Shown piece by piece: positions 5,228 to 40,794 of a DNA stretch of 64,000 nucleotides. Below the pieces are notes generated by a model that worked only from the letters and a program-made list of their open reading frames with translations, was not told the origin of the DNA and did not search any database. The position numbers were made by a program, and so were the translations under genes. The first letter of the stretch is position 1. Each line of letters starts with the position of its first letter. Origin of the DNA: Gracilibacillus ureilyticus (GTDB lineage Bacteria; Bacillota; Bacilli; Bacillales; Amphibacillaceae); assembly GCF_900111195.1 (NCBI RefSeq), contig NZ_FOGL01000008.1:62001-126000 (forward strand). The letters run 5' to 3'.

Positions 5228-7483
5228 GTGAAAAACTATTTATCAAAAGTTATCCTATTATCCATTGTATTTCTGTGTCTCACCTCTAACTTCTCATTTG
5301 CTGAAGTAGATGGAGATACTCCTGTCGATATCAGCGATTATGCAAAGAACATGCAGCCTGGCTGGAATCTTGGTAATACGTACGATGCTGTCGGTGAGGA
5401 TGAAACAGCTTGGGGAAATCCTTACGTTACAAAAGAACTTATTGAAAAGATTGCTGAAGAAGGATTTAAAAGTATCCGGATTCCGATTACATTCGACCAG
5501 AGGATGGATACTGATGGCGATTATTTAATTGACCAGGATTTTCTCATCCGTATTGATCAGACGATTCAATGGGCACTAGAAGAAGAGCTTTACGTCATGA
5601 TCAATGTTCATCATGATTCTTGGGTATGGATAGAGAACGGGATGCAGGAAAACCATGATCAGACAGTTGCTCGTTTTAATGCTATCTGGACGCAATTAGC
5701 TGATCATTACAAAGATTACTCTGTCAAACTTATGTTTGAAAGTATTAATGAACCGAGATTTTCAGGAACAGAAGAAGAGAGCCTGAATTACTTAGATGAA
5801 TTAAATGAAAGCTTTTACGAAATTGTCAGAAAGTCCGGCGGCAACAATGATATTCGCCCATTGGTTATACCAACCCTTCACACCGGGTCAGAGCCTGTTT
5901 ATCTGGAGAGACTGGACAGCTTCATTGAAACATTAGATGATCCAAACATTATAGCAACTGTCCATTATTATGGCTTTTGGCCATTTAGTGTGAATATTGC
6001 TAGAGCTACTAGATTTAATGACGAGGTTAAAAATGATATCATCACAGTATTTGACAGGGTACATGACACTTTTACAGCAAAAGGAATTCCGGTAATCATT
6101 GGAGAGTATGGTTTATTAGGCTTCGACACAGATATCGGGGCTATCCAGCAGGGTGAAAAGTTAAAGTTCTTTGAGTTTATGACCCATTATGCCCAGGAAA
6201 AGAACCTTGTTCATATGCTTTGGGACAATGGACAGCACCTGAACCGGAACACGCTTGAATGGTCTGATTCCGAATTCTTCGAGATGCTGCAAACAAGCTG
6301 GGACACCAGATCAGCTGTTCCTGATGACAATTTTATATATCTGGAAAAAGGAAAAGAATGGACAGATAAATCATTAACCTTCGAACTGAACGGGAATGAA
6401 TTCCTTGAAGTTTCCATGAATAATCAGCTTCTAGAAGAAAATGAAGATTATACAATCAATGAAAATACCATCACATTTAAAAAGTCTTTTCTTCAGTCAA
6501 TCTCTTCAGAGGAAACAGGGTCGATAGCTACTATTCATATAGCCTTTACAGACGGTGTTGACTGGAACATCGACGTAAGACAATTTAGCAGACCACAGCT
6601 GGGTGAAGCAGAAGGTTCAACAGTTAGTTTTAAAATCCCGGCTGAATTCAATGGTGACCAGCTAGCAACAATGGAAGCATATTATGAAGACGGGTCCATT
6701 GCCGGTCCGCAAAATTGGACATCATTTAAGGAATTTGGATATACATTCTCACCTAACTATGATGATGGTTATATTGAATTAAATGAAAACTTTTTTAATG
6801 AAACAAACGATGGTCTAGTCAACCTTACGTTTTACTTCTGGAGTGGTAAAACAGTGGAATACACGATCGAGAAATCCGAGAAGACTGTGAAAAGTGCGAG
6901 TGGAGATGTCCCGGCGAAAGAATTCACAGATATCTTCTCAGGCCATTGGGCGAAGGATGCTATCCAGTTACTAGCAAATAAGGGAATATTGAATGGGTAT
7001 CCCAATGGAACGTTTCGTCCTGATTCTACGATCAGCCGAGCAGAAATTGCCCAAATTGTTGCAGCAGGGCTGGACCTGGAAGCTGGTAATATCAATACCC
7101 GTTTCAAGGACGTGACAGGTAAAGAGTGGTATGCAAATAATTTATATGCACTAGCTGAAAATAATGTTATTGCCGGATTTACTGATGGAACGTTTCGACC
7201 GACAGCTAAAGTAACGCGTGCTGAGTTAGCCGCAATATTAGGCCGTGCTCTTGAATCTACTGAAGTGGAGCTGCCAAGCAATAATAAAACAATCGAAGAC
7301 TTTACTGATGCAGCAAAAATCCCTGAGTGGGCAAAAGATGATATCGAAACAATCATCCAACATGATATTATGCAAGGATTTCCAAATGGCCGGTTTTTCG
7401 CAACAGATTTTGCAACCCGTGCAGAAGCAGCAGCTGCGCTCGGGAATTTTCTGAAAAAGGTTAAAGGCTGGCCTCCGCTTTAG
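5228..7483 (+). CDS. Cell-surface GH5 endoglucanase with CBM_X2, CBM46 and three SLH domains
   Basis: The 751-residue protein starts with GTG after CAGGAGGG and has a signal peptide (about 1-25). The GH5 domain spans about 35-365, with acid/base Glu175 in ESINEP and nucleophile Glu293 in IIGEYGLLG, plus the HYYGFWP substrate-cleft motif. About 368-455 resembles a CBM_X2 immunoglobulin-like module and 460-560 a CBM46. This GH5_4-CBM_X2-CBM46 order is known from Bacillus endoglucanases such as BhCel5B, which act on cellulose and xyloglucan. Three SLH repeats (about 570-750; NGYPNGTFRPDS is one core) anchor it to the pyruvylated wall polymer, so it should act on the cell surface. It stands alone between promoter and terminator. 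Confidence 0.92.
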   Translation: MKNYLSKVILLSIVFLCLTSNFSFAEVDGDTPVDISDYAKNMQPGWNLGNTYDAVGEDETAWGNPYVTKELIEKIAEEGFKSIRIPITFDQRMDTDGDYLIDQDFLIRIDQTIQWALEEELYVMINVHHDSWVWIENGMQENHDQTVARFNAIWTQLADHYKDYSVKLMFESINEPRFSGTEEESLNYLDELNESFYEIVRKSGGNNDIRPLVIPTLHTGSEPVYLERLDSFIETLDDPNIIATVHYYGFWPFSVNIARATRFNDEVKNDIITVFDRVHDTFTAKGIPVIIGEYGLLGFDTDIGAIQQGEKLKFFEFMTHYAQEKNLVHMLWDNGQHLNRNTLEWSDSEFFEMLQTSWDTRSAVPDDNFIYLEKGKEWTDKSLTFELNGNEFLEVSMNNQLLEENEDYTINENTITFKKSFLQSISSEETGSIATIHIAFTDGVDWNIDVRQFSRPQLGEAEGSTVSFKIPAEFNGDQLATMEAYYEDGSIAGPQNWTSFKEFGYTFSPNYDDGYIELNENFFNETNDGLVNLTFYFWSGKTVEYTIEKSEKTVKSASGDVPAKEFTDIFSGHWAKDAIQLLANKGILNGYPNGTFRPDSTISRAEIAQIVAAGLDLEAGNINTRFKDVTGKEWYANNLYALAENNVIAGFTDGTFRPTAKVTRAELAAILGRALESTEVELPSNNKTIEDFTDAAKIPEWAKDDIETIIQHDIMQGFPNGRFFATDFATRAEAAAALGNFLKKVKGWPPL

Positions 7484-8816: not shown

Positions 8817-9853
8817 AATAATGTCGCCCCCTCTTTTCCTTTTTGCTCCCCTGCTCCTTTCACCTTACCAAAACCGAAGACTTTGCGGCGGAATTCCGGT
8901 GATTGTAATAAGCACACAATTAATACGACAAGTGCTTTAACTACCAAATTAGTCTCTGCCGGGATACCAATGGAATAAATTGTAGTCGTTAAACTTTGGA
9001 TAATCAGTGCTCCAATAACTGTCCCTGTAAGATAGAACCGCCCACCCATTAAAGAAGTTCCACCAATAACAACTGCTAAAATGGCATCGAGTTCAAACCA
9101 TAATCCTGCATTGTTTCCATCCGCACTCATTACGTTAGAGGATAAGATTAAACCGCCAACCCCAGCGCAAAATCCTGAAAACATGTATACCATTAACATA
9201 ATATTTTTCGAATTGATCCCAGCCAGCCTGCTCGCATCTGGATTTGATCCAACTGACTCTATAAAAAGTCCAAGTGCTGTTTTTCTCGTTAACAAAACAG
9301 CTATAAGAAAAACAAATGCTGCAATAAAAATGGAAAACGGCAAGGCCAATAAATAGCCGCCACCAATAAATGAATATGGATCATAGTATACAGTAGTGAT
9401 TTGCCCGCCAGTAATCAGCTGTGCGACACCTCTCCCAGCAACCATTAAGATTAATGTTGCGACAATCGGCTGCACACCAACCCTGGAGACAAGCAAACCA
9501 TTCCAGCCCCCAACAAATGTACAAATCAATAATGAAAGCCCAATAGCCATTAGTAATGGTCCTAAACCTGTACCATCCGCACTAGCAACGGTCATCGCAC
9601 CAATTGCTCCAGACATAGCAATCACTGACCCTACACTTAAATCAATTCCTTTTGTTGCAATTACTAGAGTCATCCCTATCGATATCAGTATTAACGGGGC
9701 TCCACGGTTTAAAATATCAATCAGACTTCCTGTTAGCCTGCCATTTCGTATTTCCATTGAAAAGAAACTGCTATCAAAAAACAAATTGATTAGTAAAATT
9801 AGCATTAATACGAGAATCGGCCAAAACAGTCTGGATTTTATTATAGCTTTCAA
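8813..9853 (-). CDS. Sugar ABC transporter permease, YtfT type
   Basis: The 346-residue protein has the same family signature (TKGIDLSVGSVIAMSGAIGA, about 65-84) and VIGGTSLMGGRF near the C-terminus, with about nine membrane helices. It would form the heterodimeric channel with the YjfF-type protein, whose start codon it overlaps. The gene lies only 4 nt downstream of the ATPase gene, so the three are co-translated. Its C-terminal tail is basic and glycine-rich (KGAGEQKGKEG), which is not part of the membrane domain. Confidence 0.88.
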   Translation of the reverse strand: MKAIIKSRLFWPILVLMLILLINLFFDSSFFSMEIRNGRLTGSLIDILNRGAPLILISIGMTLVIATKGIDLSVGSVIAMSGAIGAMTVASADGTGLGPLLMAIGLSLLICTFVGGWNGLLVSRVGVQPIVATLILMVAGRGVAQLITGGQITTVYYDPYSFIGGGYLLALPFSIFIAAFVFLIAVLLTRKTALGLFIESVGSNPDASRLAGINSKNIMLMVYMFSGFCAGVGGLILSSNVMSADGNNAGLWFELDAILAVVIGGTSLMGGRFYLTGTVIGALIIQSLTTTIYSIGIPAETNLVVKALVVLIVCLLQSPEFRRKVFGFGKVKGAGEQKGKEGATLL

Positions 9854-9857
9854 TATG

Positions 9858-11372
9858 TCACCCTCCTCCGGCCATTTCTTTCATAACGTCCTGTTGTGTT
9901 AGTTTGCCGTCATTATCAAACTCTTTTACTTTCTTTCTATCTCGGAGTACTGCTATTCTGTCACACGTTCGTAATATCTCTTCTATTTCTGAAGAAATAA
10001 ATAAAATCGATTTATTCTCTTTACTTAACTTCGTCATTAACTTCATAATTTCTGTTTTTGCACCTATATCAATACCACGAGTAGGTTCATCGAGTATTAA
10101 CAGATCCGGATCGGTTACCAGCCACCTTGCAAGCATCACTTTTTGCTGGTTCCCTCCACTAAGGTTTTTAATTAATTGCTCTGGATTAGCCGGATTAATA
10201 TTTAATAATTGAATATATTCATCCGCAATCTTCATTTGCTTTGCTTTTGAAAGATAGCGAAACCAGCCATACACACTTTGAATTGCAAGAATCATATTCT
10301 CTCTAACTGTTAACTCAGGGATGATTCCTTCTGTTTTTCTATTTTCCGAACAAAAGCCAATTTTATATAAAATCGCATTCCTTGGGGATGAAAAGTGGGC
10401 TTCCTTACCATTTACTTTAATTTTTCCTTTATCTTTTTTATCTGCTCCAAATAAAACACGGGCCATCTCTGTTCTTCCTGATCCTAACAATCCGGCAAGT
10501 CCGACTATTTCTCCTTTTCTCATTTCCAAATCAAATGGTTCCACTTTCCCCTTAAGTCCAACCTCATCTGCCTGTAGAAAGGACTGTGTACTCTCTGTTG
10601 TATTGCCTGTGTTTTTAGAAGAAATTGCTTCCATCTCCTCTAATTCTTTGCCGATCATTTTCGAAACAAGGTCCATACGGCTGATTTCTGCCGTTTTATA
10701 CTCCCCAATCCATTCACCATTACGTAATACTGTTAAGCGATCGGTTATTTCAAAGATCTGGTCTAAAAAGTGGCTGACAAATACGATCGCAAGGCCGTCC
10801 TTTTTTAATTGTCTCATTACTGCAAATAGCTGCTGCACTTCGTCCCGGTCGAGACTTGAGGTCGGTTCATCCAAGATAAGGATTTTGGCTGATACATTAA
10901 GCGCCCTTGCAATAGCGACCATTTGCTGTATAGCTACTGAATAGGAGGATAACAGTTTCGTTACATCAATTTTTAACTGTAATCTTTCTAATAATTTCTC
11001 TGCACGCTGATGCATTTCCTTCCATGCTAATCTCCCGTATTTCTTAATTTCCCGGCCGATAAAAATGTTTTCTGTTACAGAAAGGTTGGAACATAGATTC
11101 ACCTCCTGATATACAGTAGTAATCCCGTGTTCCTGAGCCTTTAACGGACTGCTAATATGAACAGGATTCCCTTCAAGCGTTACAGTCCCCTGATCAATCG
11201 GATAAACCCCTGTCAGAACTTTGATCAATGTGGATTTTCCAGCACCATTTTCGCCCATGAGTGCGTGAACTTCACCTGGATAGAGCCTCAGCTGCACATC
11301 AGAAAGTGCCTTCACACCTGGGAATTCTTTCACAATATTGGTCATTTCTAATCTCGGCAATTGTTCGGCCAA
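9858..11372 (-). CDS. Sugar ABC transporter ATP-binding protein, YtfR/RbsA type
   Basis: The 504-residue protein contains two ATPase domains, as usual for carbohydrate class 2 importers. The first has Walker A GENGAGKST at about 40-48, a signature-like SVAIQQM and Walker B ILILDEPTSSLD. The second has the degenerate P-loop GLLGSGRTE, the signature LSGGNQQK and Walker B LLILDEPTRGID. It starts with TTG after GAGGGAGG. It follows the binding-protein gene after a gap containing a 13-bp hairpin, and its two permease partners follow without gaps. Cytoplasmic, on the membrane inner face. Confidence 0.92.
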   Translation of the reverse strand: MAEQLPRLEMTNIVKEFPGVKALSDVQLRLYPGEVHALMGENGAGKSTLIKVLTGVYPIDQGTVTLEGNPVHISSPLKAQEHGITTVYQEVNLCSNLSVTENIFIGREIKKYGRLAWKEMHQRAEKLLERLQLKIDVTKLLSSYSVAIQQMVAIARALNVSAKILILDEPTSSLDRDEVQQLFAVMRQLKKDGLAIVFVSHFLDQIFEITDRLTVLRNGEWIGEYKTAEISRMDLVSKMIGKELEEMEAISSKNTGNTTESTQSFLQADEVGLKGKVEPFDLEMRKGEIVGLAGLLGSGRTEMARVLFGADKKDKGKIKVNGKEAHFSSPRNAILYKIGFCSENRKTEGIIPELTVRENMILAIQSVYGWFRYLSKAKQMKIADEYIQLLNINPANPEQLIKNLSGGNQQKVMLARWLVTDPDLLILDEPTRGIDIGAKTEIMKLMTKLSKENKSILFISSEIEEILRTCDRIAVLRDRKKVKEFDNDGKLTQQDVMKEMAGGG

Positions 11373-12604: not shown

Positions 12605-12821
12605 TATTTTTGTAATAGATATTCTTTTGAAAAAAATTAATTATTTATCGAATTTCATTTATAAATGTTTAATTTTTTTAGTTATAATTGTGTTATTTTT
12701 TAAAATAAGGAAAATAGACTATAGAAACTAGTTCAAATGAGTTAGAATATAAGAAAGCATTTTTCCTGATTTATTAAAAGATAACGAGCGTATCTTAAAA
12801 CCATTAGTTAGGAGTTTAAAA

Positions 12822-14063
12822 ATGAATGCGTTTTCAAAATTAAATAAATTATCGATCCGCTCAAAATTCCTTATTCTATTTATTTTGCTTTTCGTATGGT
12901 TTGGTCTTATACAGCTTGTACAGCTCTTCTTATTTATAAATTATATTAAGCAATATAACGAAATAACGGAAACTATCCATTTAACTAACTCAATCCATGG
13001 TCAGCTTAGAGATCAGTTAGAAGAGGAAATTAGAGATATTGTTTATGGAAAAGTTTATTTTGAAGATGGGAAGCAATATCATATTTTAACCCAAATGGAG
13101 GGAAATCTTAACACAGTTGCAGAAAAGGAAATGGCACAACCTTTTACCAATGAGATTGAAGAGGTAAGGACAATACTTGCAACAACTACCGAATATGTTG
13201 ACAAACTTGGCGAGCAGATTAAATTTAATGCACCTGCAGAAGAAAGATACATATCCCAGGAATATATTGGGATTGCCTCTGAATTAATTAATGAACATGT
13301 GCAGACATTATTGCAAAAAACTTTGCAGGAAAGTGAAAGACAAAAAGAAGCGATGAAGGAAAAAATCAATCGTGACATTGTTATCAGTGTTACTGTCTAC
13401 ATACTATTAGTAGTAGTTATTTTTTTCATTATCTGGATTGCATCCAAACACATGTTAAAACCAATCTATTCTTTGCAGCATCTTGCCAGAGAAATTGCGA
13501 AAGGTAACCTGAAAGTGAAGATTACTCCTGTGAAAGCGACAAATGAAATAGATGATCTTTATAACGGTTTTCTTTCAATGACCAATTATTTAAAGCAAAT
13601 TATCAGTCAAGTACAGCATACAAGCAAGGAAATCATCCATACATCAAAGCAAATTCATCAAAGTACGGAGGAAAATCTCTCAGCAGGTGAACAAATGACA
13701 GCAACCAGTCAATTTATCACAAATGATTTACAACACCAGCATAACCAATTACAACAACTAGAACGTGAGAATCAGAAATTATTAGAGAAGCAAATAACCT
13801 TTCAGAGTAAATTAGATAATCTCCCCGGAGAGCACCGCCTTATCCATGAACACACTTCTATTACCATCACGATGATCATCCAGTTGCAGAAAAATATTGA
13901 AGAATTTAAAACACAAATTACTGCATGCTTTTCCAATATGGAAGTAATCGGGGCACTGGGAGAAGAGCAGCTGACTACCATTGAAGAAATTGCCGAAAAC
14001 TCTGATAAGCAGCTCGCCTATTTAGCACAATTACAGCAGCAGTTAAGGCAATTTACCATTTAA
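12822..14063 (+). CDS. MCP-like HAMP membrane sensor without a typical signalling tip
   Basis: The 413-residue protein has two membrane helices (about 17-38 and 188-208) flanking an extracellular helical domain, a HAMP domain (about 209-262) and a coiled-coil tail (263-413). It resembles a methyl-accepting chemotaxis protein in layout, but I cannot find the conserved hairpin tip that contacts CheW/CheA, and the tail is much shorter than usual. It heads an operon of sensor kinase, response regulator and tethered sugar-binding protein, 24 nt ahead of the kinase. It probably helps sensing rather than steering flagella; this role is inference. Confidence 0.75.
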   Translation: MNAFSKLNKLSIRSKFLILFILLFVWFGLIQLVQLFLFINYIKQYNEITETIHLTNSIHGQLRDQLEEEIRDIVYGKVYFEDGKQYHILTQMEGNLNTVAEKEMAQPFTNEIEEVRTILATTTEYVDKLGEQIKFNAPAEERYISQEYIGIASELINEHVQTLLQKTLQESERQKEAMKEKINRDIVISVTVYILLVVVIFFIIWIASKHMLKPIYSLQHLAREIAKGNLKVKITPVKATNEIDDLYNGFLSMTNYLKQIISQVQHTSKEIIHTSKQIHQSTEENLSAGEQMTATSQFITNDLQHQHNQLQQLERENQKLLEKQITFQSKLDNLPGEHRLIHEHTSITITMIIQLQKNIEEFKTQITACFSNMEVIGALGEEQLTTIEEIAENSDKQLAYLAQLQQQLRQFTI

Positions 14064-24213: not shown

Positions 24214-24230
24214 ATAAAAAAACATTAAAC

Positions 24231-24258
24231 ACAAGAGGACGGGTGACTGTCCTCTTGT
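24231..24258 (+). terminator. Hairpin downstream of the alpha-galactosidase gene
   Basis: ACAAGAGGAC and GTCCTCTTGT form a perfect 10-bp stem with an 8-nt loop just after the stop codon. The T-run is weak (CTCTAATT), so it may be a stabilising or bidirectional end rather than a strong terminator. Confidence 0.65.
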
Positions 24259-24701
24259 CTCTAATTCGGTATGCAATTCTTGAAGTATAATATTGCTATG
24301 AAGTACAGTGAAGTTTCTATCTTTCGGTGTACTGATCTCTGTTTCATTATACATATTCAACAATTTGTGCCCCACTGACTAGATTTGGGAGCTACAAAAC
24401 AGATTCTTATGCATATGAATATCTTAATGCCTCTATCAATGCTCTTTCCGTTCCATAGAGCAATACGAGTAGCTGGTATCTCTTTAATTGGTTGCATGAA
24501 ATAAAAACGGGGCCTGTGAAACAAAAACCTAACTTGAACTGGGAAGTGATATTTACTCTGCCATCTACTAAGATATCCCCTAACCACAATTCGCAATAAT
24601 TTGTTAGCTGGAATATATAACAACACTTGGGCACTTCAGCACATTATGCAGCGGGAGTACAAGCCCTAAATCACCAAAGCGCGAGAAGTAAAGGCATCAA
24701 A
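24259..24701. other. 443-nt region with no recognisable gene
   Basis: It separates the alpha-galactosidase gene from the 3' end of the exopolysaccharide cluster (convergent). Open frames of 60-90 codons exist on the minus strand but have no ribosome binding site and no family I recognise. It may hold decayed coding sequence, but I cannot name a parent gene. Confidence 0.35.
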
Positions 24702-32976: not shown

Positions 32977-33357
32977 CTATAGAGCATTACATATATTCTC
33001 AGCAGAATTCCCATCACCGAATAACATAGGTTGGGGGTGTTTCAAACAGTCTAATTCTCTCGTAACCGCGCTTAGAATTGAATCAATATTAATTGAACTT
33101 AAAACATTCCAACCGTTTTCTAAAGTTTCCACCCATTCTGTTTGATCTCTTAGTGTTGTGCATGGTGTTTTAAGAAAGAAAGCCTCTTTCTGCAGGCCAC
33201 CAGAATCCGTTACAACCATGTATGCATTTGCTGTAAGATATAACATCATTAGATAACCAACTGGTTTTATTAGGGTTACATTATTCAACTTTATATCTAG
33301 TTTATTAATCAATTTTCTTGTTCTTGGATGAATTGGCAGGATTATTGGCTTATCCAT
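32977..33357 (-). pseudogene. Truncated UDP-N-acetylglucosamine 2-epimerase (C-terminal third)
   Basis: The open frame gives 126 residues that match the C-terminal part of non-hydrolysing UDP-HexNAc 2-epimerases (WecB/WbpI): ILPIHPRTRKLI and TDSGGLQKEAFFLKTPCTTL are signature motifs of a family of about 360-380 residues. In frame upstream, only about ten related codons remain before stop codons, and the next gene starts at 33506. The ATG has no properly spaced ribosome binding site. About 240 N-terminal residues with the nucleotide-binding half are missing, so it is almost surely inactive. In WbpI pathways this enzyme converts UDP-GlcNAc3NAcA to the ManNAc3NAcA form. Confidence 0.88.
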
Positions 33358-34762: not shown

Positions 34763-35380
34763 TTAAACTCTCCTAGCTGGTACACCAACATAAGTACCAG
34801 GGTCATTTATATCCTTAACTACCACAGCACCTGCACCAATTTTACAATCATTCGTAATTTTTATATTATTACTTACTACCCCGCCAATTCCTAACCAAGA
34901 TGATTTTCCAACTTTAACTGAACCAGCTAAGTTAGCGCCTGGTGATATATGCACAAACTCTTCGATCCAATTATCATGGTCTATTGTAGAACCAGTGTTG
35001 ATAATGCAACCTTTTTCTATTCTCGTACAGCAGTTAACAATTACTCCAGCCATAATAGCTGTACCAACTCCTATATCTACTTGTGACCCTATTACGGCAT
35101 CCGGGTGAATTAACACCGGAATACTTGCACCAATTGTTTCTAGCATTTCATGAAGTCTCTTTCTGGTAGAATTATTTCCAATACCGACAAATACCTCGTA
35201 CTTGTCTATATGGAAATAAACATCCTTGGAATGCCCGATGACTTCTAAATCCATTGTTGATTTAATACTCGCATCGTCATCTAAGAAAGCTATTTCCTTC
35301 CACTTGTCCATTTTAATTGCGATATCTGCCACAACCTTACCATGACCACTGGCACCTATTATAAGTAGTTTGTCTTTCAT
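34763..35380 (-). CDS. epsM: Sugar N-acetyltransferase, PglD/EpsM type
   Basis: The 205-residue protein has an N-terminal PglD domain (LLIIGASGHGKVVADIA, a UDP-sugar site) and a left-handed beta helix of hexapeptide repeats. The catalytic His is in NTGSTIDHDNWIEEFVHISPG. PglD acetylates the 4-amino group of UDP-4-amino-sugar to give UDP-N,N'-diacetylbacillosamine. It overlaps the PglC-type gene by 4 nt and is in the same order as B. subtilis epsL-epsM. Confidence 0.9.
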   Translation of the reverse strand: MKDKLLIIGASGHGKVVADIAIKMDKWKEIAFLDDDASIKSTMDLEVIGHSKDVYFHIDKYEVFVGIGNNSTRKRLHEMLETIGASIPVLIHPDAVIGSQVDIGVGTAIMAGVIVNCCTRIEKGCIINTGSTIDHDNWIEEFVHISPGANLAGSVKVGKSSWLGIGGVVSNNIKITNDCKIGAGAVVVKDINDPGTYVGVPARRV

Positions 35381-36024
35381 GACTCGATTCTTCTTTCTTT
35401 TTTTGTTCCTTTAAAGGGTTCCATTGTAGGGGTACTTCCAGAATTAATCCCTTCTCTGACAAATACTTTCTTAATAGTCAGGAAAATTATCTTCCAATCT
35501 CCTATGAAACTTACATTTTCTACATACTTAACATCGAGATTAAATTTATCTTCCCAGTTAATTGCATTCCTCCCATTAATCTGTGCCAAACCAGATAGTC
35601 CCGGCCTAACTTCATGCCGGCGTTTTTGATGATCACTGTATAATGGTAAATACTGCACCAATAGTGGTCTTGGACCGATAATTGACATATCACCTTTTAA
35701 AATATTAAATAATTCAGGCAGTTCATCAAGAGAAGTAGAACGCAGCAATTGGCCAAACTTAGTCAATCTAACACTGTCAGGCAAAAAATTTCCGTTTTCG
35801 TCTTTCTCATCTGTCATTGTCCTAAACTTATACATCATAAAAATTTCCTCATTCATCCCTGGTCTATTCTGTTTAAATAGAACTGGGCTGCCCAGTTTCA
35901 ACCTCACAAGTATAGCCACTGTTAGAAATACCGGACTTAGAATAATAATAGCAACTAAAGAAAGGATGAAATCCATCGGTCTCTTTACAAATCTTCTGTA
36001 TATCCCTCCTTTGGAATTTTTCAT
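35377..36024 (-). CDS. epsL: Initiating phosphoglycosyl transferase, PglC/EpsL type
   Basis: The 215-residue protein is a monotopic phosphoglycosyl transferase: a membrane hairpin (about 14-36), FKQNRPGMNEEIFMMYKFRTM, the catalytic Asp-Glu pair in LRSTSLDELPELFNILKGD, and PGLSGLAQINGRN. It transfers a phospho-sugar from UDP to undecaprenyl phosphate to begin each repeat unit; with PglD/E/F present, that sugar is likely diNAcBac. I placed the start at ATG 36024, which overlaps the previous stop codon (TAATG); a GTG 12 nt upstream is an alternative. Confidence 0.92.
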   Translation of the reverse strand: MKNSKGGIYRRFVKRPMDFILSLVAIIILSPVFLTVAILVRLKLGSPVLFKQNRPGMNEEIFMMYKFRTMTDEKDENGNFLPDSVRLTKFGQLLRSTSLDELPELFNILKGDMSIIGPRPLLVQYLPLYSDHQKRRHEVRPGLSGLAQINGRNAINWEDKFNLDVKYVENVSFIGDWKIIFLTIKKVFVREGINSGSTPTMEPFKGTKKERRIES

Positions 36025-37154
36025 TATTCTAACCACAACCTCTTAATAGTCTTAATTACTCTCCAAAGATCCTCCTCCGTCATCTTCGTATCGGACGGCA
36101 AACAGATACCATTCTCAAACAAATTCTCCGACACATCACTTCCGACAAAATCATATTTTTCAAAGTAAGGCTGTAAATGCATGGGCTTCCACACTGGTCT
36201 TGATTCAATATTCTCTCCTTCAAGTACCTCCATTATGTCAATTGGTCTAACATTTCCTGTTAGTGTCATACAACTTAACCAGTAATTTGGTTCATCCCAT
36301 TCATTACTTGGCATGAATTCAACGCCTTCAAGCCCGCCAAGTTCTCTCTTATAAAAATCAACTATGTACCTTTTCTTTACAACTCTATCTTCTAAAACTT
36401 TTAGTTGCCCTCTTCCTATTCCAGCAACAACATTACTCATTCGGTAATTGAACCCTAATTCACTGTGTTGATAATGTCTCGTCTGATCTCTAGATTGAGT
36501 CGCCCAGAATCTAGCCTTCGCAATTTTTCCTTCATTATTGGAAACTAGCATTCCACCACCAGAAGTAGTGATAATCTTATTGCCATTAAAAGAAAAGATA
36601 CCATAATCACCAATAGATCCAGTATGTTTCCCTTTATAGTAAGTACCCAATGACTCAGCAGCATCTTCTATAACGGCCACATTATGTTTCTTGCAAATTT
36701 CCATTATTTTGTCCATATCTGCAGATAAACCATATAAATGGACAACTATTACTGCCTTTACCTGTGGATATTTTTCAAATGCCTCTTCTAATGCATTAGG
36801 ACTGATATTCCATGTTTCATAATCGCTGTCTATAAACACCGGAGTGGCATTTTGATAAATGACAGGGTTAACAGTAGCCGAAAAAGTGAGGGTTGGGCAA
36901 AATACAATATCACCTTCTCCAACGCCTGCTGCTTTTAGCGCCAGATGAATGGCTGCTGTTCCCGAGGAAAGTGCTGCAGCAGCTTTGGAACCAACCAGCT
37001 CTGCAAGCTCTTTTTCAAATTCATTCACGTTTTCGCCTAGGGGAGCAATCCAGTTGGTATCAAAAGCTTCTTTTATGTATTGCATTTCATAACCTTCCTC
37101 GCTCATATGAGGTGAAGAAAGGTATATTCTTTCTTTTACTTTTGTTGACTGCAT
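36024..37154 (-). CDS. epsN: UDP-4-keto-sugar aminotransferase, PglE/EpsN type
   Basis: The 376-residue PLP enzyme is of the DegT family: LSSGTAAIHLALKAAGV, the aspartate in AVIEDAAESLGTYYKG, and the Schiff-base lysine in FSFNGNKIITTSGGGM. The FNGNK form is typical of PglE/EpsN enzymes that make UDP-bacillosamine precursors. It starts at ATG, 9 nt after AAGGAG. It follows a 364-nt leader that holds the pseudoknot at 37366-37405. Confidence 0.92.
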   Translation of the reverse strand: MQSTKVKERIYLSSPHMSEEGYEMQYIKEAFDTNWIAPLGENVNEFEKELAELVGSKAAAALSSGTAAIHLALKAAGVGEGDIVFCPTLTFSATVNPVIYQNATPVFIDSDYETWNISPNALEEAFEKYPQVKAVIVVHLYGLSADMDKIMEICKKHNVAVIEDAAESLGTYYKGKHTGSIGDYGIFSFNGNKIITTSGGGMLVSNNEGKIAKARFWATQSRDQTRHYQHSELGFNYRMSNVVAGIGRGQLKVLEDRVVKKRYIVDFYKRELGGLEGVEFMPSNEWDEPNYWLSCMTLTGNVRPIDIMEVLEGENIESRPVWKPMHLQPYFEKYDFVGSDVSENLFENGICLPSDTKMTEEDLWRVIKTIKRLWLE

Positions 37155-37329
37155 ATATCTAGACTCCTTTCCCTGGTTAATTTTAGTAAATTAGAACTTT
37201 CTTGGAACCCCATTTTTCCAACTAACTGCTAAGCCACTAAAAAACTTGTCGAACCAACTTAAATTTGTATGAATATCACCGGAGAATTTATAAATGGTTT
37301 ATCAATCCTTTTGTGTTCATATTTAAACC

Positions 37330-37405
37330 TGGGCATCCAATCCCATCTCAAACTACCGACAACTAGCGTCTTAGGCTCTCATACCCAAAACGCGACCGAG
37401 AGCCT
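37330..37405 (-). ncRNA. Candidate eps-associated RNA (EAR-like) with H-type pseudoknot
   Basis: Read on the minus strand, AGGCTCTC (37405-37398), GCGTTTT (37393-37387), GAGAGCCT (37380-37373) and AAGACGC (37372-37366) pair in the order A, B, A', B'. Helix A is a perfect 8 bp and helix B 7 bp with one G-U, with loops of 4, 6 and 0 nt: a compact H-type pseudoknot. A TGGG/CCCA hairpin (37330-37345) follows. The element lies in a long gap inside the eps operon. B. subtilis eps has an RNA (EAR, the epsC motif) with a pseudoknot that drives processive antitermination; identity with it is inference. Confidence 0.6.
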
Positions 37406-37518
37406 CCATTGATAAAGGCAAAGGAGACATTACCTAACATTTTCCGCAAGACAAATCACATAATTTTAATAAAGACCATGCTAATGCTAGTTTCTAATAA
37501 AGAATAAGCCCAAAACCT

Positions 37519-39351
37519 CTAACCTTCTACTAGCTTCAGCCTTCCCCTTCGCTCATCATATACGATTGCCATTAACTGCTCTTTTAATCCTTCTTTAGAA
37601 TACTCATTAAAAGAATCAATTAAATCTACTAGACAGCGTTTGTTCACGTTAACCGTCTTTCCGACATAAATCTTTTCATAGATTGCTTCTGGATGCACTT
37701 CCTTCTCGCCGAGTAATTCTTCATACATCTTCTCACCTGGTCTGATCCCGGTATACTCAATTGGAATCTCATTTTCTGAATAGCCAGATAATTTAATCAA
37801 GTTCCTGGCCAAATCAACAATTTTTACGGGTTCACCCATATCTAACACGAAAATTTCACCGCCACTTGCTAATGTGCCAGCCTGGATAACGAGTCTCGAT
37901 GCTTCTGGTATTGTCATGAAGTATCTGGTCATTTCAGGGTGAGTAACTGTTACAGGACCGCCCCGTTCAATTTGTTTCTTGAATAACGGAATAACACTGC
38001 CGCGGCTTCCGAGTACGTTTCCGAATCTTACAGCAACAAACTTTGTTTCACTTCTAGCAGCTAAATCCTGAACTATCATTTCTGCTACACGCTTAGTTGC
38101 TCCCATTACATTAGTGGGATTAACAGCTTTGTCTGTGGAAATAAGAACAAATGTGTGAATACCGAATGTATCGGCAGCCTCTGCTACATTCTTCGTTCCA
38201 ATGATATTATTTTTAAATGCCTCATGAGGATTGTATTCCATTAATGGTACATGCTTATGAGCTGCCGCATGGTAGATAATTTCAGGTTTATACTCATTGA
38301 CAATTTCAAACATTCGATTGCGATCCTGAACATCTGCAATAATAGGAATAATTTCTATTTCGGTATGACCACACTTTTGTCGAAGTTCGATATCAATTGA
38401 GTAAATGCTGAATTCACCATGACCGACCAGTAAAATCCGCTCTGGGTTGAACCGCACCAGCTGTCTGCAAATTTCTGACCCGATGGAGCCTCCAGCACCT
38501 GTTACCATCACCGTTCTATTCGTTACATATTCAGTAATGGAATTAATATCAAGCTCTACCGGTTCACGGCCAAGTACGTCCTCAACATCCACATTTTTCA
38601 AAGTGCTAACCGAGACTTTCCCTGAAACAATATCTTCAATTTTCGGTACCATCTGTACTTTTGCACTTGTGCCATTACATATAGTAACCATTTCCGTTAG
38701 GGCTCCATTTGTTAAAGATGGGATCGCAATTATAATATGTTCAACCGCTAATTTTTTCACCAATTCAGGAATATCTTTTGTACTGCCTGCTACTGGCAAA
38801 TCATATAATTGCATTTTGTGCTTTGTTATATCATCATCCACAAAAGCAACTGGGTATAATTCATTATGTTTCGGTTCATTTTTTAACTGTCTTGCAATCA
38901 TCGCACCTGCTGAACCGGCACCAACGATTAATGTCCGCTTCTTATATTTTTGTTCATTAATGCAATTATCACGGAAGACGCGCCAAACAAACCTTGAACC
39001 ACCGATAAGTGCAATATGTAATAACCATGTTACGATTAAGGCACGTTTATAAATAGAAAAATCATTGATGAGAAGCTGAACAATGGCTGTTGTAACAATT
39101 GAAAAGGTGATCGCTTTAACGATTGCGATCATCTCACCAATACTTGCATAGGACCATACTTTATGATAAAGCTTATATTTTGCTGCAAATATATGATGAA
39201 GTGCTAACAATGCAAATGCACTTAACCACAATTTATTAAGAGAGTCAAAATCGTTATTTGGATAAACAATCCATGTGGCGATAAAAATCGCTGTACTAAC
39301 AATGAGAGAATCCATTAACACTAATAGAAATATTCTTAGTTTGTAGCTCAT
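37519..39351 (-). CDS. epsC: UDP-GlcNAc 4,6-dehydratase, PglF/EpsC type
   Basis: The 610-residue protein has four N-terminal membrane helices, a first nucleotide-binding domain (LIVGAGSAGAMIARQL) and a C-terminal short-chain dehydrogenase/reductase domain (VTGAGGSIGSEICRQL; the Tyr-x-x-x-Lys is replaced as usual by a STDKAVNPTNVMGATKR form). It converts UDP-GlcNAc to UDP-4-keto-6-deoxy sugar, the first step to bacillosamine. I placed the start at ATG 39351 after GGAGAGG; an upstream in-frame extension to 39414 lacks a signal. It is the counterpart of B. subtilis epsC. Confidence 0.9.
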   Translation of the reverse strand: MSYKLRIFLLVLMDSLIVSTAIFIATWIVYPNNDFDSLNKLWLSAFALLALHHIFAAKYKLYHKVWSYASIGEMIAIVKAITFSIVTTAIVQLLINDFSIYKRALIVTWLLHIALIGGSRFVWRVFRDNCINEQKYKKRTLIVGAGSAGAMIARQLKNEPKHNELYPVAFVDDDITKHKMQLYDLPVAGSTKDIPELVKKLAVEHIIIAIPSLTNGALTEMVTICNGTSAKVQMVPKIEDIVSGKVSVSTLKNVDVEDVLGREPVELDINSITEYVTNRTVMVTGAGGSIGSEICRQLVRFNPERILLVGHGEFSIYSIDIELRQKCGHTEIEIIPIIADVQDRNRMFEIVNEYKPEIIYHAAAHKHVPLMEYNPHEAFKNNIIGTKNVAEAADTFGIHTFVLISTDKAVNPTNVMGATKRVAEMIVQDLAARSETKFVAVRFGNVLGSRGSVIPLFKKQIERGGPVTVTHPEMTRYFMTIPEASRLVIQAGTLASGGEIFVLDMGEPVKIVDLARNLIKLSGYSENEIPIEYTGIRPGEKMYEELLGEKEVHPEAIYEKIYVGKTVNVNKRCLVDLIDSFNEYSKEGLKEQLMAIVYDERRGRLKLVEG

Positions 39352-39670
39352 TATAGCCCCAACCTCTCCATTAATTATTAATATTATGTAATAACTTTTG
39401 ACCTGTTCCTTCATTAATAAGAGGAGGATTTCTATTTATTCTCTTACCCTCAAATCTGTTAAATGTATTATTTTCCGCTAGCTACCTTTACAATATCCAT
39501 ACAGAATTCTAATCATGTGTTTGCAAACTTCAGTGTTTTCCCGACATCATACCTCTTCCCCGAAATTTCATAGCCAAAACAACCTTGTACATATTTTTAT
39601 TGCTGAATACATCCGTTAACCGGATCTCTCCGCAGTTCCCTTTATGTCTTTAAAGGTTGGATTCTTTTAA
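39352..39670. other. Gap between phosphatase and epsC genes
   Basis: 319 nt without a credible gene. It contains a small hairpin, ATCCG/CGGAT with a 5-nt loop (39611-39625), in a stretch more GC-rich than its surroundings. It is the position in which B. subtilis carries its EAR element (just upstream of epsC), but I do not see the two-helix pseudoknot here. Confidence 0.4.
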
Positions 39671-40756: not shown

Positions 40757-40790
40757 AAAAATGCCTATCCCTCATCATGAAGGATAGGCA
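40757..40790 (-). terminator. Strong intrinsic terminator after the BY-kinase gene
   Basis: On the minus strand, TGCCTATCC pairs with GGATAGGCA (9 bp, 11-nt loop), followed by TTTTTATTT. It starts a few nucleotides after the kinase stop codon and stands inside the eps cluster. Confidence 0.8.
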
Positions 40791-40794
40791 CTTA

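Follow-up and report, generated by a model that had tools for sequence, protein, structure and literature searches.

The question raised by this locus is what kind of RNA lies between two exopolysaccharide genes of Gracilibacillus ureilyticus, and what it does to transcription of the genes that follow. The window refers here to the whole stretch of 64,000 nucleotides analyzed, in which all positions below are counted. A preliminary description placed a compact pseudoknot RNA at 37330–37405 within an untranslated leader, and proposed either a relocated EAR or a new element. The untranslated stretch was measured correctly (37155–37518, 364 nt), with a dehydratase gene on one side and a DegT aminotransferase gene on the other, both on the minus strand. 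However, it is an intergenic gap within one same-strand gene run rather than a leader. The elements at the gap are as follows.

37519–39414, minus strand: EpsC-like nucleotide-sugar dehydratase, upstream neighbor (PF02719, 428 bits)
37330–37435, minus strand: EAR (epsC, RF01735) RNA, whole (cmscan 56.9 bits, gathering score 42, model positions 1–117)
36024–37154, minus strand: EpsN-like DegT aminotransferase, downstream neighbor (PF01041, 341 bits)
35377–36036, minus strand: EpsL-like initiating sugar transferase (PF02397)

The EAR/epsC identity, which the preliminary description had suggested checking with the Rfam model, was borne out by a full-length RF01735 match of 106 nt above the gathering score, and so was the location between epsC-like and epsN-like genes. 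This is the sole Rfam match at the gathering threshold in the whole window; the only other candidate at the locus, a sub-threshold match to snR190, was taken as chance. The EAR is in sense orientation inside the exopolysaccharide gene run, as its neighbors were assigned by Pfam, and it is the single epsC/EAR match found in the genome (4.07 Mb in 38 contigs). Judged by the dehydratase, the closest named relatives are members of Gracilibacillus, the top three at 79, 78, and 77%. Thus, 37330–37435 is not a new element but a member of the EAR/epsC family, a known kind of RNA in a common position, in an unusual copy.

Pairing was evaluated in an alignment (A1) of all 60 EAR matches listed for the family, from searches that took one genome per species with strict filters, weak matches being lost. 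In the EAR pairing scheme 95.3% of cells are paired, a percentage that is favored because the scheme was derived from the same 60 sequences. Two-sided changes amount to 142, compared with 38.7 for shuffled sequences and no more than 23 after sliding of the partners. The window copy folds as follows.

37416–37435, minus strand: pseudoknot PK1, AGGU (37435–37432) with GCCU (37419–37416) in the P1 loop; helix 1, 94.6% of cells paired
37402–37428, minus strand: hairpin P1, GUCUCC (37428–37423) with GGAGGC (37407–37402); helix 2, 97.8% paired
37346–37401, minus strand: P2, reduced; either a lower part, UCUCGG (37401–37396) with UUGAGA (37351–37346), or an upper part, 37395–37389 with 37354–37348
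37374–37385, minus strand: hairpin P3, GGU (37385–37383) with GCC (37376–37374); helix 5, 93.9% paired
37358–37370, minus strand: hairpin P4, GACG (37370–37367) with UGUC (37361–37358); helix 6, 91.2% paired
37330–37345, minus strand: hairpin P5 of the MFE fold, UGGG (37345–37342) with CCCA (37333–37330); helix 7, 90.2% paired

The pseudoknot that covaries across the family pairs the first four bases (nGGU) with ACCn in the P1 loop. Its outer pair is seen as UA, AU, CG, GC, and UG, and is unpaired in 10 of the 60 EARs. P1 has two-sided changes at four of its six pairs, and the inner pair of P4 varies among GC, AU, and GU. Support for P5 is weak, as its outer pair is unformed in 21 of 59; moreover, its MFE register is one base off the family columns, and in the family register the window copy forms three of the five pairs. 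An RNA element is therefore present where the preliminary description had put one, but its true extent is 37330–37435, and the covarying pseudoknot lies outside the coordinates first proposed.

The window copy has the lowest Rfam score among the 60 family matches listed, while in the order-wide sample three genomes (G205, G296, and G303) have a best match weaker than it. In the other 59 EARs, 41 columns reach 95% conservation or more and were called conserved. The window EAR departs at 11 of these in alignment A1, or at seven when its 3′ strand is shifted so that UGAG aligns under UGAG. The next most divergent copy has seven departures (eight of 42 in a leave-one-out count), and the median is zero. 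Because the better placement gives the same number as that next copy, the window copy is not alone.

With both placements, changes fall on both sides of the CUGUGGG/CCUUAG region. The window has UUUUGGG for CUGUGGG and CCUAAG for CCUUAG, and UGAGG is gapped in A1 or reads UGAGA if re-placed; these core words were taken from the present alignment, and Rfam does not state them as a rule for the family. Whichever alignment is used, the 3′ strand of P2 is short by about 5 nt, a loss in a helix that almost all of the compared EARs retain. The lower part of P2 is kept in the MFE fold and in the Rfam alignment (UGAG under UGAG), whereas the upper part is paired at six of seven positions in A1, where UGAGG is gapped. 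As the 3′ strands of the two parts overlap and those 5 nt are gone, the lower or the upper part can form, but not both in full. The MFE fold of the window copy also extends the P3 stem to 11 pairs.

In B. subtilis, the EAR sits between epsB and epsC (PMC7858274, PMC10653937). The window EAR is like it in its full-length model match, its sense strand, and its place in an exopolysaccharide gene run, but differs in lying after the dehydratase and before epsN, in having lost part of P2, and in its length of 106 nt. The share of genomes in which an EAR was found is 6 of 17 for the genus, 54 of 159 for the family, and 255 of 397 for the order sample. Sorted by neighbors, the 60 family EARs fall into 27 immediately 5′ of the dehydratase (25 adjoining an epsB-type kinase gene), 21 on its 3′ side at no more than 2 kb, and 12 in other places. 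With 21 of 60 on the 3′ side and 12 elsewhere, the epsB–epsC position does not define the EAR family, and the place 3′ of the dehydratase is a common second arrangement. Being ‘relocated’ in this way is not peculiar to this genome.

For all 21 EARs that are 3′ of the dehydratase, the four genes that follow include one for an EpsL-type transferase, as against 1 of the 27 that are 5′ of it and 8 of the 12 others. This shared placement suggests that in these loci the EAR may serve to have the variable sugar cassette transcribed. A model called R1, applied to 80 named loci surrounding relatives of the dehydratase, found 38 EARs in 35 loci; among the named species, Oceanobacillus manasiensis, Paraliobacillus quinghaiensis, and Ornithinibacillus caprae are examples with an EAR on the 3′ side of the dehydratase. 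Some gene runs have two EARs, one 5′ and one 3′ of the dehydratase, about 3 to 4 kb apart (L066 from genome G137, at 7013–7123 and 10895–11014; L132, at 9721–9832 and 12803–12911).

Within the genus, the dehydratase is found at E 1e-100 in 13 of the 17 genomes. Six of the 13 have an EAR just 3′ of it, and no EAR was found at this junction in the other seven. Copies at the junction score 107, 87, 76.6, 70.1, and 56.9 bits, an order by score and not by phylogeny. EARs of G011, G013, G014, and G001 occupy the same junction as the window EAR, and in G011 the same four genes follow in the same order; the G011 copy is canonical (107 bits), whereas the window copy lacks the 5 nt of P2 and has a changed core. 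A further copy, in G010, is degraded to only 92 nt (42.2 bits with R1), and its stretch is identical to that of Gracilibacillus orientalis (L096). Saliterribacillus persicus has a weak match of 24.7 bits, its 5′ part being best preserved.

An epsN-like gene (78–80% identical) lies within about 30 to 165 nt 3′ of the dehydratase in loci L186, L189, L190, L191, and L196. With this gene next at five junctions of the genus where no EAR was found, the gene order has been retained without the EAR-bearing stretch. One of the five, in G016, has an EAR instead 5′ of a second dehydratase. For L187 and L188, where likewise no EAR was found at the junction, the search of the locus gave no epsN match.

What does this copy do? 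The B. subtilis EAR antiterminates at distal and heterologous terminators, according to a review (PMC7858274), and by analogy the window EAR likely acts in processive antitermination over the distal cassette. We consider it fairly probable that the window EAR is a diverged antitermination RNA, which would make polymerase termination-resistant over the next ~13 kb. Three steps would be involved. First, the EAR would be transcribed within the polysaccharide mRNA. Second, it would fold, with its 5′ pseudoknot and hairpins, while leaving RNA polymerase. Third, the folded EAR would render polymerase resistant to termination through epsN, epsL, epsM, and the variable glycosyltransferase and sugar genes, up to the terminator at 24265–24224. 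Counted for this reading are the RF01735 match, the covarying fold, the same strand as the genes, constraint relative to 4-fold sites, the EpsL-type placement, the B. subtilis precedent, and the finding of just one NusG-domain place in the genome. Counted against it are the lowest listed score, the changed columns, the reduced P2, the scan result of no strong intrinsic terminator before the operon end, and the degraded or absent copies in the genus.

The main rival is that the window copy is a decaying, non-functional EAR, being lost at a junction where the need for antitermination has relaxed. Its 7 to 11 changed columns out of 41, depending on the placement, would fit such decay, as would the fall from 107 to 56.9 bits among the genus copies, with the further one at 42.2, and the seven dehydratase-bearing genomes with no EAR found at the junction. 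On the other hand, PK1 (4/4), P1 (6/6), P3 (3/3), and P4 (4/4) are all fully paired in the window. The window EAR also equals the G011 copy at 90 of 104 aligned bases, versus 35–44% of the 4-fold sites kept between the same two genomes (76/209 in the dehydratase gene, 43/123 in epsN, 30/68 in epsL, and 27/64 in epsM), while the EAR flanks agree near the level of shuffled sequence. We thus regard decay as possible but doubtful, and the window copy as probably functional, perhaps weakened.

Another alternative is the H-type pseudoknot of the preliminary description, as a functional fold of a new element or as an alternative state of the EAR. Both of its helices are possible in the window sequence. 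The first joins AGGCTCTC and GAGAGCCT (37405–37398 with 37380–37373, minus strand) in eight perfect pairs, and the second joins TGGGTAT and ATGCCCA (37387–37381 with 37336–37330) in seven pairs with one G-U, interleaved with the first. The loops, given as 4/6/0 nt, are 10/0/36 nt. Such nested pairing had been thought to have a low chance, but when the 364 nt were shuffled 1000 times with dinucleotides preserved, 172 of the shuffled sequences had an 8-bp perfect stem and a 7-bp stem (one G-U permitted) that interleave, in whichever order, inside a span of 120 nt. The fold energy of 37330–37435 is also unremarkable (z of −1.10).

Among the 60 family EARs, the two helices are formed in 60.3% of cells versus 60.4% in shuffles, and six cells are changed on both sides versus 6.9 expected from shuffles. 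In the second helix, the inner four pairs (GGGU/GCCC) occur in 56 to 59 of the 59 or 60 EARs; they are nearly invariant, so the counts cannot decide between that helix and P5. The two schemes are mutually exclusive, as the first arm overlaps P1, which has strong covariation, and the last arm overlaps P5, which has weak covariation. With no covariation and with the chance frequency in shuffles, this pseudoknot was rejected as the fold, and a functional role for it is very improbable. Judged from sequence, the two helices are real complementary words but not the fold.

LoaP antitermination uses an RNA hairpin, which is a different RNA from the EAR. Antitermination here by a LoaP-type NusG paralogue and not by the EAR itself has next to no probability, because, although LoaP promotes antitermination in B. 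velezensis (PMC12691694) and like the EAR favors terminator readthrough, this 38-contig assembly has a single NusG-domain place, where the LoaP model reaches 107.8 against a cut-off of 125. A specialized NusG is thus unlikely to be involved here.

Returning to the diverged antitermination RNA, we consider the terminators of the gene run, two of which are strong.

40759–40793, minus strand: intrinsic terminator immediately following the epsB-like kinase gene, on the upstream side of the EAR (dG −22.7)
24224–24265, minus strand: intrinsic terminator ending the gene run (dG −21.1, with a T tract)

From the EAR to 24265–24224, an energy scan found no strong intrinsic terminator, only intragenic candidates with dG of −13.2 or weaker. 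In the terminator scans and the energy scan, these were no stronger than candidates on the antisense strand, and they were rejected as EAR targets. Within this downstream stretch, a UDP-GlcNAc 2-epimerase gene (32977–33357, minus strand) is only a C-terminal fragment, its open frame matching the Epimerase_2 profile at 216–346, or at 178–346 with two stops in a wider match. A longer one (profile 4–346) is elsewhere in the genome (G000:C37).

The terminator at 40793–40759, 3.3 kb upstream of the EAR, is the strongest of the scan besides the operon-end one. A terminator lies within 130 nt of the epsB stop in 17 of 17 family loci with a CpsB-type phosphatase gene next, although the sequences differ, and the rate for comparison is 24 of 177 sampled other genes. 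In the window and in the equivalents from 16 other loci, this post-epsB terminator splits the locus ahead of the EAR. For 14 of the 17, the EAR follows the dehydratase and borders on the variable glycan cassette. Where an EAR lies right after epsB, 0 of 25 loci have such a terminator, but this cannot be set directly against the 17 of 17 found over 130 nt, because the EAR cut short the stretch searched (to 40–98 nt for 23 of the 25). Of the remaining loci in the count, 14 have no epsB within 6 kb upstream and four have another gene next (one of the four positive).

The EAR cannot suppress a terminator upstream of it. Therefore, the genes from the phosphatase gene onward would be reached by readthrough or from a promoter of their own. 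In the window, the interval from the post-epsB terminator to the phosphatase gene has no promoter that stands out (99% of shuffles scored as well), and among the 16 other loci two reach 0.05 or less and two have gaps too short to score. In several relatives, a word, CGACAAAACTTCTAATC or similar, containing TCGACA, recurs in this interval, and a related word, TTCGACAAG, is found at 37245–37253 in the window, between the EAR and epsN. We take these words to resemble a Spo0A box.

A more specific form of the antitermination reading can be put forward tentatively. Beyond the conserved post-kinase terminator, the window EAR may represent a reduced subtype, in which the 5′ pseudoknot module and the small hairpins persist while half of P2 and the usual internal-loop core have been lost. 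If so, the reduced subtype would show which modules are dispensable for antitermination. At one junction in one genus, canonical, reduced (window), and degraded EARs occur along with none, making a natural deletion series for the essential parts of this RNA.
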